A stretch of 64,000 nt of DNA from Halobellus sp. MBLA0158 (GTDB lineage Archaea > Halobacteriota > Halobacteria > Halobacteriales > Haloferacaceae), in NCBI RefSeq assembly GCF_041477585.1, contig NZ_JBGNYA010000001.1:930001-994000 (forward strand), given 5' to 3'. Below the pieces are notes generated by a model. That model was not told where the DNA came from. It searched no databases and saw only the letters and a list, made by a program, of their open reading frames with translations. A program made the position numbers and the translations under genes. Below are positions 8,777 to 39,175 of the stretch, piece after piece. How positions within the stretch are numbered: position 1 is the first letter of the stretch; each line of letters starts with the position of its first letter.

Positions 8777-8861
8777 GCCGAGGTAGCCTAGCCTGGCCAA
8801 GGCGGTAGATTCGAAATCTACTGTCCATTCGGACTCGTGAGTTCAAATCTCACCCTCGGCG
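8777..8861 (+). tRNA. tRNA-Ser (anticodon CGA)
   Basis: 85 bases that fold as a class II tRNA: acceptor GCCGAGG (8777-8783) pairs with CCTCGGC (8854-8860), discriminator G; anticodon stem GTAGA/TCTAC closes the loop TTCGAAA, giving anticodon CGA, which reads UCG; a long variable arm (TGTCCATTCGGACTCGTGA region) is typical of tRNA-Ser; the T-loop GTTCAAATC is canonical. No intron and no encoded CCA. The T-arm and 3' end are the start of a 74-bp repeat copied 133 bp downstream. Confidence 0.95.
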
Positions 8862-8914
8862 CTTCTCCGCGATACAACCCACAAGCGGCGCGTGTATGCG
8901 CCGCGATACGCGTT
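8841..8914 (+). repeat. 74-bp direct repeat, copy 1 (contains tRNA-Ser 3' end)
   Basis: Identical over 74 bases to 8974-9047. It begins with GTTCAAATCTCACC of the T-arm, includes the last 21 bases of tRNA-Ser and 53 bases of downstream DNA, and ends at CGATACGCGTT. The flank carries a hairpin GCGGCGC-GTGTAT-GCGCCGC (8885-8904). Copying the 3' end of a tRNA gene is the usual mark left by tRNA-targeting integrases; a plain tandem duplication is the alternative. Confidence 0.9.
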
Positions 8915-37207: not shown

Positions 37208-37837
37208 GTGGAGAACGTCACCGACCGAACGAGCAATCCCTTCGGTATGCGACCGCCCTGTGACCGGTTCGTCCCCGGATACGGCGACGCCAACGCCGAC
37301 TTCCACGTCGTCGGCGACAGGCCGGAGGTCCACGGCGGCCTCGATACCGCGGTTCCGTTCACCAACGACGCGGGCCGCAGGCTCCAGGACGCGCTGGTCG
37401 CGGCCGGTCTCCTCCGCTCGGCCGGCGACGACCCCGACGTGCGGAAGACCTTCCTCTCGTACCTCCATATGTGCGCCCTCGGGCCCGACGAGCCCCCGCA
37501 GTCGTCCTACGACGACCTCGAACGCTTCTTCGACGCCGAACTCCGGGCGATCGCCGCGCACGTCCTCCTCCCGGTCGGCGAGCGGGCGACGCGGCACGTC
37601 CTCGAAACCTACACGGCCCAGGCGTGGAAGACCGACGTGGAGATGGAGACCCTCCACGCCACCGAGATCCGCGGGAGCGGCTTCCTCGTCGTTCCGATCC
37701 GAGAGCCCGCCGACTGGGACGACACGCACCACGACCGCCTCGTCGACGGCCTCCGGACGCTGCGGTCGACGGACTACCGGCGCGAGGCCGACCTCGGACG
37801 GTTCAACCCCGGCGACGATCCGTACCTCGTCCGATGA
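37208..37837 (+). CDS. Uracil-DNA glycosylase superfamily protein
   Basis: 209 residues from GTG. The first motif, HVVGDRPEVHGGLDTAVPFTNDAGRRLQDAL, is shaped like the UDG superfamily start (GExPG ... PFxGxAGxxL), with Asn-Asp in the loop. KTFLSYLHMCAL is the second strand. The usual four cysteines of family 4 iron-sulfur UDGs are absent. The final catalytic H-P-S motif is not clear. Likely a haloarchaeal divergent branch; may bind but not cut uracil. Role in base excision is inference. Confidence 0.7.
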   Translation: MENVTDRTSNPFGMRPPCDRFVPGYGDANADFHVVGDRPEVHGGLDTAVPFTNDAGRRLQDALVAAGLLRSAGDDPDVRKTFLSYLHMCALGPDEPPQSSYDDLERFFDAELRAIAAHVLLPVGERATRHVLETYTAQAWKTDVEMETLHATEIRGSGFLVVPIREPADWDDTHHDRLVDGLRTLRSTDYRREADLGRFNPGDDPYLVR

Positions 37838-37951
37838 CCCCTCGACCTCACCGAATTTTCAGTAATCGATCAGGATCTATCCGGAACGTACACTGACCTC
37901 CTCTGGAGATTTACATATTTATTTTCTGGAAGCGAAATCCGCGCAGTATTA

Positions 37952-37958
37952 TTTAATA
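37952..37958 (+). promoter_or_regulatory. Possible TATA box of the hairpin-rich region
   Basis: TTTAATA in an AT-rich stretch (37905-37960); a second candidate ATTTATT lies at 37917-37923. Transcription would start near 37980 and run into the hairpins at 38034-38134. Composition-based only. Confidence 0.4.
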
Positions 37959-37979
37959 TTCACCTCTCGTCGCAGAGGA

Positions 37980-38140
37980 CGGTTGATATTGGTACTATCA
38001 CAGAACTTTTGAGCACAAACGTCGAAATCCATTCTGACGCGCGTGGTCGATACCGGGCGCGTCAGGTAAGGACCTGCGAGACTGGTGCTCTTCGCAGTGG
38101 CTTGGTCAGTCAGGGGGACCGCCCTGCGGTCCCCGTTTCC
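37980..38140 (+). ncRNA. Candidate structured RNA between UDG and J-domain genes
   Basis: A 330-bp gap (37838-38167) with no credible gene holds several perfect hairpins in order: CTGACGCGC/GCGCGTCAG (38034-38042 with 38057-38065, plus inner GGT/ACC), AGGT/ACCT (38064-38075), CTGCGA/TCGCAG (38074-38079 with 38092-38097) and a 9-bp stem at 38114-38134 followed by T-rich bases. TATA-like boxes lie upstream. I read this as a possible small RNA of about 160 bases on the plus strand. The class (guide RNA, regulator) is not recognisable, and an unknown translated product cannot be excluded. Confidence 0.4.
38114..38134 (+). terminator. Terminator-like hairpin
   Basis: GGGGACCGC - CCT - GCGGTCCCC, 9 perfect base pairs with a 3-base loop, followed on the plus strand by GTTTCCTTTC. 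Could end a transcript of the hairpin region, or act after the convergent J-domain gene, although the minus-strand side lacks a T-tract. Confidence 0.5.
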
Positions 38141-38167
38141 TTTCGTGACACGCTTCGAGAGTACTCA

Positions 38168-39175
38168 CTATCTGGCCGCGTAGCGTCCGACGTCGACCGC
38201 GAACAGGAGCGTCGCACCGATCGGCACCGCGGCGACGAGCGCCAACACGACCCCATCGGAGAGGGCGACGACCGGCCCCACGGCGAGGGCGGCGACGGGA
38301 GCGAGCCCGCCCACCAGATAGAGGTACGCCGAACCGCGCCCGAACGAACTGACGACAGCCAGGAACGCGACGGCGAGCGCGACGGCCCCGACGGGAAACA
38401 GCAGTTCGGGGCCGGGGGCGGCAGCGCCGGATATCGTCCGGAGCGCGAACGTCCCGGGCGCGAGCAGCCGCGTCGCGGTCAGGGCGCCGATCGGGTCGGC
38501 GGCGACCGCCTCGCGGAACGACCCGACGGCGGCCGCGTTCGCGCCGAGGTACTGCCAGAGCCCGGCCAGATAGACGGTCCCCGCCAGCAACACGCCGAGC
38601 CACCCGTACTGGAGCCGTGTGAGCCCGCGGCGGGCCGTCGAGTCCCGATTTGCGGTACGGCCGGCCGTTGTCGACCGTCCGCTGCCGCCGGCGGACTGTG
38701 ACTGCCCGCTCGCCGTCGACGTCCGCGACGTCCCTCCCGGGTGTCCCGTCTGCGACCCGCCGCCCGATCCCGTTCGATCCGACCTCGCGCCGCCTGATCG
38801 GGTTCCGCTCGCTCCCGCGTTTCCGGTCGCGTCTGTACTCCGTTTCGACTCCCTCTTGGGGCCTTCCGTCGCGTCGTCGCTTTCGTCGCCTTCGTCGTCT
38901 TCGTCGATCGCGTCCGGGCCGGGCTGGCCGGCTGTCGGGAGGCCGCCGAGTCGCTCTCGGACGTACGTCTCGTGGCCCAGTCTGTCGTAGGCGGCGCGTT
39001 TCTCCTCCGATGAGAGCACCTCGTGGGCCGCCTTGAGCGTCTTGAACTGCGCGTTCGCCCTGGCGTCGTCGTTGACGTCCGGGTGGTAGGTTCGGACCCG
39101 GTCGCGCCACGCGCGGTCGATCTCCTCGGCCGGGGCGTTCTCCGACACCCCGAGCAGGTCGTAGAAGTCCTCCAT
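38168..39175 (-). CDS. J-domain membrane protein
   Basis: 335 residues from ATG at 39175. N-terminal J-domain (about 1-66): [20 protein letters not shown] and the essential HPD in TYHPDVN, so it should stimulate an Hsp70/DnaK ATPase. A low-complexity Ser/Gly/Thr/Arg linker (about 85-180) follows, then four hydrophobic helices at the C-terminus. A membrane-bound J-protein may recruit DnaK to the inner face of the membrane. It lacks the G/F and zinc regions of DnaJ. The longer frame upstream is rejected. Confidence 0.87.

Follow-up and report, generated by a model that had tools for sequence, protein, structure and literature searches.

A predicted small RNA gene conserved across most of one haloarchaeal family carries a tail complementary to the start of gltB

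The gap between a UDG-like gene and a J-domain gene in a haloarchaeal genome of 3.29 Mb (G000, genus g1) raises the question of whether it encodes an RNA of its own, and on what such an RNA might act. A preliminary description of the 64,000-nucleotide stretch that was analysed (the window, from a haloarchaeon) had proposed a structured RNA there, on the strength of four perfect stems. The gap runs from the stop of the UDG-superfamily gene (37208-37837, PF03167; stop ending at 37837) to that of the DnaJ-domain gene on the minus strand (38168-39175, PF00226; stop at 38168), and its size was recomputed as the 330 bp given before. All four stems are present in the sequence, and the coordinates of most of them were recomputed. 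The AGGT/ACCT stem does exist around 38064-38075, but it overlaps both adjacent stems and is lost in alignments, and the conserved promoter, with its T-run CTTTTGA, lies elsewhere than the AT-rich "TATA candidates" of 37905-37965. The terminator-like hairpin of nine base pairs, GGGGACCGC/GCGGTCCCC, was recovered together with its T-rich end, GTTTCCTTTC. Within the 5' hairpin an inner UGGU/ACCG stem and a variable loop were also found. On comparative sequence grounds the gap holds, in our reading, a genuine gene for an RNA of about 105 nt, whose parts are a promoter, two hairpins (5' and core), a near-invariant tail and a terminator hairpin (Table 1). The properties looked for were those of a trans-acting antisense sRNA, namely a conserved secondary structure, a transcription unit of its own, bounded by promoter and terminator, and complementarity to an mRNA segment that is maintained in evolution.

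Table 1. Features of the predicted RNA gene, in window coordinates
Feature	Position	Strand	Remarks
Predicted small RNA, about 105 nt	38035-38140	+	both ends estimated from the TATA spacing and the terminator
Upstream promoter element ATATTGGTACTATCACAG	37986-38003	+	loose ATATTGG-like motif, 63/64 loci
TATA-like box CTTTTGA	38006-38012	+	T-run in 63/64 loci
5' hairpin CTGACGCGC (38034-38042) / GCGCGTCAG (38057-38065)	38034-38065	+	two-sided changes, 8/11 modelled pairs
Core hairpin CTGCGA (38074-38079) / TCGCAG (38092-38097)	38074-38097	+	two-sided changes, 4/6 modelled pairs
Core-hairpin apical loop CTGGTGC	38082-38088	+	mostly GGTGC; AGTGC or GGTAC in some genera
Predicted antisense tail GTGGCTTGGTCA	38097-38108	+	complement of gltB coding sequence nt 2-13
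Terminator hairpin, 9 bp, then T-rich GTTTCCTTTC	38114-38134	+	terminator scan

The distribution of the RNA was followed by a DNA search and by two covariance models, R1 built from 27 sequences and R2 from 64 loci. The DNA search gave matches in 75 of 148 family genomes, two of which (G039 and G041) were chance matches of 23-24 nt on reading. In the large R1 and R2 searches, whose strict filters may miss weak matches, R1 had matches in 75 of 292 class genomes and in 12 of 294 from the phylum, every match being in the same family, and R2 gave 111 matches in 391 class genomes, 110 of them inside the family; the outlier, G197, looks spurious. The covariance search of relatives that had been suggested as a check was carried out with R2 and matched 117 of the 148 family genomes (E<=0.01), spanning 23 of 28 genera, or 115 genomes and 21 genera when the matches in g17 and g19, which look spurious, are left out; no match was obtained in this family search in genera g3, g4, g5, g9 and g16. 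The R2 matches in G019, G017 and G197, and a second match in G091, were judged spurious on reading. At its own locus, which is among the sequences behind it, R2 scored 86.8 bits (38034-38116). Core letters of the RNA were found in 18 named records, from Halobellus, Haloferax, Halogeometricum, Haloplanus, Salinigranum and Haloquadratum; genus g13, considered below, is probably Halorubrum.

The predicted RNA (106 nt) folded at -53.5 kcal/mol, as compared to -43.3 kcal/mol for shuffled sequences (z -2.83; 1 of 200 shuffles as good), and a stretch of 161 nt gave a z of -3.2, with none of 200 shuffles as good. The preliminary description had made its structured RNA depend on compensatory base changes among relatives, and these were found: in an alignment of 64 loci (61 distinct rows, divergent genera included), both partners vary in 12 of the 17 pairs, which supports a structured RNA and constitutes the conserved secondary structure looked for. 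In the same alignment, which was fitted to the model and so favours the structure somewhat, 95.6% of cells pair, two-sided changes occupy 70 cells where shuffling gives 16.9 on average (a count matched by 0 of 500 shuffles), and the covariation score is 0.305, compared with 0.161 for shuffles and 0.02-0.05 for slid pairings, a value reached by 0 of 500 shuffles. Among the 27 close sequences covariation did not rise above shuffles (152 of 500 as high for pairs and 142 of 500 for the score), so that the evidence for it comes from the divergent genera. The core stem takes the forms CTGCGA/TCGCAG, CTGTGG/CCACAG, CCGTA/TACGG and CTGTGA/TCACAG; in g15 members it is very short, with loop and tail retained, and these two therefore seem to be essential parts. 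Two other readings of the sequence were examined and rejected. An H-type pseudoknot, GACUG:CAGUC, is kept in the 27 close sequences (99.2% of cells) and lost in Haloplanus and g10 members, and a small-protein mRNA is contradicted by aligned lengths that differ modulo 3 (26, 25 and 13 of the 64) and by an internal ATG in 16 of 64 loci.

Upstream of the RNA, 63 of 64 loci have a T-run that begins 26-29 nt 5' of the model start, as compared to 1-7 of 64 at other offsets. About 20 nt 5' of this TATA box sits an ATATTGG-like element that was recovered at 63 of 64 loci; shuffled sequences gave it at 10 of 64, and five alternative offsets at 0-7 of 64. The promoter scan found no sigma-70-type promoter, as expected of an archaeal host. 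At the other end, two terminator-like sites were found in a 1-kb stretch where shuffling predicts 0.8; a strict perfect-stem terminator test was passed in 42 of 64 loci, and a bulged hairpin could be read in several others. The sequence thus offers the promoter and terminator of an independent transcription unit, and from the conserved promoter and the terminator-like hairpin we infer that the RNA is transcribed.

These promoter elements bear on the relation of the RNA to its neighbour. The UDG-like gene lies 5' of the RNA, on the same strand and 117-311 nt away, in 69 of 76 loci (62 of the 64 behind R2 and 7 of 12 further divergent ones), and the gene on the 3' side varies among loci. Such linkage would suit a mere 3'UTR of the UDG-like gene that has no function of its own, an explanation that we find scarcely credible: promoter elements of its own accompany the RNA at 63 of 64 loci, its structure covaries, it is present at seven loci that have no adjacent UDG-like gene (three of the Haloquadratum type, three in g11, and L079), and the best UDG match in 28 genomes of other families is not accompanied by the RNA as judged by R2 (best E 0.26; 2 of the 30 other-family genomes lacked a UDG match). 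In Haloferax volcanii, HVO_1038 is listed as Udg4 (PMC7776575, in excerpt) and HVO_1040 as a DnaJ-domain protein (PMC6267482, in excerpt), and for this reason the RNA would be expected near these two genes in that species.

A modification guide of the H/ACA or C/D class, or some other housekeeping RNA, was also considered. Haloarchaeal guides may be non-canonical, according to the part of PMC2584109 that was available, a point in favour of a guide. Conserved ACA or C/D boxes were not seen on reading the alignments, however, and the longest complement to the rRNA region is 10 nt, within the 8-14 nt given by 20 shuffled RNAs. Rfam 15 covariance models gave no match at E<=5 in 37850-38250, and the RNA is confined to one family in the searches made; a guide or housekeeping role is thus very improbable. 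In the whole window, Rfam at gathering scores returned nothing but a tRNA; this tRNA-Ser (CGA), at 8777-8862, was the sole match of Rfam and of ARAGORN in the window.

What the RNA might act upon was approached from its tail, and the target was in this sense identified post hoc. The tail, GUGGCUUGGUCA, is perfectly antisense to gltB (glutamate synthase), so that the start codon is covered; the duplex has 12 contiguous pairs and an energy of -24.0 kcal/mol. Against the 381 ATG starts of the window, taken from mechanical ORFs of 60 aa or more, the same tail gave a mean of -9.8 kcal/mol (sd 2.5) and a minimum of -17.8 kcal/mol, and none of 19,902 random 25-mers lay at or below -24 kcal/mol; as a rough estimate, chance matches of 12 nt near start codons would number about 0.06 per genome. 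The target protein matches an annotated gltB product (H1) with 64% identity. The string ATGACCAAGYC occurs at a single site in the source genome, the gltB start, and begins gltB in 11 of 12 genomes searched; in the twelfth, G105, the gene starts with ATGACCGAGCCAC, which forms a 12-nt pairing that includes one G-U. A comparison of 12 genomes shows gltB almost invariant at positions 1-13 and variable in the flanks; 11 of the genes in it were picked by the pattern at positions 1-11, so that positions 12-13 and the later finds, located by gene order, are the ones free of choice. All 15 genomes in which both the RNA and gltB were read have at least 10 consecutive pairs; the complementary mRNA segment is thus maintained in evolution. 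Codon 4 of gltB is CCA in nine of the ten genes that have proline there (11 genomes), as compared to 1 of 268 proline codons from codon 16 on, an argument made weaker by other rare A-ended codons near the gltB start.

Complementarity of this kind was sought more widely. The only haloarchaeal gltB found outside the family, that of Haladaptatus, has no match to the tail (longest complement 5 nt). ATGACCAAGYC is not enriched in 12 genomes (30 sites, against 49 for a reversed control), and neither is a bipartite tail-plus-loop pattern in 30 genomes (10 sites against 58); three of those 10 sites are a Haloferax 3'UTR site described below, one is a g13 gltB start, and the other six look unrelated on reading. 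A search of 40 relatives for the 12-mer complement gave nine sites outside the RNA that were read, none with an adjacent loop complement. Within the ensemble of the RNA folded by itself the tail takes part in some pairing, with a mean unpaired probability of 0.42; on co-folding with gltB the duplex forms, and the 5' hairpin, the core hairpin and the terminator stay.

A TATA-like box begins 27-29 nt 5' of the ATG in 18 of 18 gltB genes of the family. The RNA's own box is spaced alike, and for gltB such a distance agrees with a leaderless mRNA. Leaderless starts are common in H. volcanii, where they account for 1329 of 1851 protein-coding start sites (PMC4983044, in excerpt). Further upstream, 35-75 nt 5' of gltB, a conserved block (about CCTTATATG ... 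CCCTTAT ... TCAGG) was noted at L250, L243, L256, L252 and other loci, and from its sequence it looks like the site of a regulator.

In genus g13, tail and target were seen to change together. One group of genomes (G013, G095 and G100) has the tail GACUUGG and AAGUC in gltB, and a second (G105 and G081) has GGCUUGG and GAGCC, so that between RNA and mRNA a G-C pair is exchanged for an A-U pair; AAGUC is also present in G132, G134 and G144, known from gltB alone. This co-change is a single event in one genus, and the calculated energies are asymmetric: the RNA of group one on the mRNA of group two gives -13.8 kcal/mol, compared with -18.0 for the matched pair, and the reverse swap (GGCUUGG RNA on AAGUC mRNA) gives -19.4 by way of G-U pairing, slightly better than the matched -18.0. 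Other members diverge further. In three of the Haloquadratum type (L063, L190 and L191), at which no UDG gene is adjacent, the tail differs, GUCAAUUGAUCA being an example, with UGAUCA kept; these RNAs may have switched target. The g11 loci L187-L189, again with no adjacent UDG gene, have the tail GUGACGUGGUCA in two cases and the standard tail in one. No gltB could be found in those Haloquadratum-type and g11 genomes where it was sought.

A further complementary site was met in Haloferax, where second R2 matches in two genomes (G049 and G112; L198 and L200) turned out to be the antisense strand of a target-like site. This site lies after the stop codon of a gene for a small zinc-ribbon microprotein and before a helicase gene labelled UvrD-type from its sequence motifs, and it is complementary to both the tail and the loop of the RNA, its second half being the part that matches the loop. 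The microprotein presumably resembles HVO_0758, a name taken from the title of PMC10716476. The site is retained in all eight genomes examined (L203-L208, L198 and L200), in one case with a base substitution in the segment that matches the tail, and its spacer and flanks vary; the tail duplex ranges from -18.2 to -26.3 kcal/mol, and in the seven of eight loci measured the site lies 10-13 nt past the stop codon. That a two-part site is kept suggests base pairing as the mode of action of loop and tail, and from its sequence the site may be either a target or a decoy. With both tail and loop complemented there, one could suppose that the main target lies elsewhere, for instance in this microprotein and helicase region or in several mRNAs, with gltB belonging to a larger regulon or being activated instead of repressed. 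We hold this to be unlikely, as the same helicase gene at 23 loci of other genera lacks the site (longest complement 4-8 nt), which therefore cannot explain conservation across the family.

The loop is also where a different explanation finds its footing. In the three g13 genomes of group one, in which the loop reads GGUAC, it has a gltB complement of 7 nt; in the other 12 of 15 genomes the complement is 3-5 nt. Loop and tail are moreover held more strictly than most stem positions, as would be the case if this were a structured RNA that binds protein, or a component of an RNP, with tail and loop kept for recognition by a protein and the match to gltB a coincidence fixed early in the family. 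A contact with protein would also fit the strictness; it does not account for the change of the g13 tail being matched by gltB, nor for a separate complementary site in eight of eight Haloferax 3'UTRs, one with a changed base, and we consider such an RNA rather improbable. An extension of the antisense reading can be entertained tentatively, though it seems doubtful: across the family the sRNA would recognise nt 1-13 of a leaderless mRNA through a grip in two parts, the tail on the start codon and the loop a few nucleotides downstream, and Haloferax would have added a decoy with both complements in the 3'UTR of the zinc-ribbon microprotein gene.

Taken together, we think it likely that the gap encodes a trans-acting sRNA, with its own promoter and terminator, that blocks the translation of gltB. 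The tail, flanked by hairpins, would pair with nt 2-13 of the gltB mRNA, start codon included. Given a leaderless gltB mRNA, pairing at the start should exclude the ribosome and lower GltB: a 12-bp duplex at the extreme 5' end would keep the ribosome off and initiation would be blocked. Less GltB (glutamate synthase, GOGAT) would in turn trim nitrogen assimilation, and a signal would presumably act through the conserved upstream promoter element of the RNA. Starvation experiments with H. mediterranei name glutamate synthase among the genes that change strongly (PMC10779274, in excerpt), in a different haloarchaeon it is up-regulated when trmB is mutated (PMC10817205, in excerpt), and these changes make further control of the gene plausible.

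The closest parallel among known systems is sRNA162 of Methanosarcina mazei, in which, as far as the available part of PMC3510493 goes, a single-stranded segment of an archaeal sRNA likewise masks the translation start of its target mRNA. That RNA differs in lineage, sequence and target, and the ribosome binding site that it masks is located within a bicistronic mRNA, whereas the RNA described here is predicted to cover the start codon of a probably leaderless one. With s132, s479 and SHOxi of H. volcanii, as portrayed in excerpts, it would share the character of a haloarchaeal regulatory RNA with a metabolic or stress role. Staphylococcal IsrR is likewise a small RNA linked to the glutamate synthase mRNA, with gltB as a target; IsrR is bacterial and iron-controlled, and the likeness is no more than an analogy. 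PMC9410917 mentions gltB 29 times. Among the open-licence PMC papers listed in our searches we found no report of the present RNA or of an sRNA acting on haloarchaeal gltB.

Haloarchaeal sRNAs are numerous, and few have a known target. Most of those tested are poorly conserved, and 22 of 27 sRNAs are confined to H. volcanii (PMC3956466, in excerpt), none of the 27 in that excerpt having a locus number near HVO_1038-1040. As opposed to these mostly species-confined RNAs, the one described here is found in about 21 genera and combines wide conservation with covariation, a likely target at a start codon and a matching two-sided change in one genus. With it, the question of whether and by what means an sRNA can silence a leaderless mRNA becomes open to direct test. 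A master regulator of the NrpR or NrpA type is not conserved in haloarchaea (PMC6801745, in excerpt), and the RNA is a candidate regulator of the haloarchaeal GS/GOGAT route.
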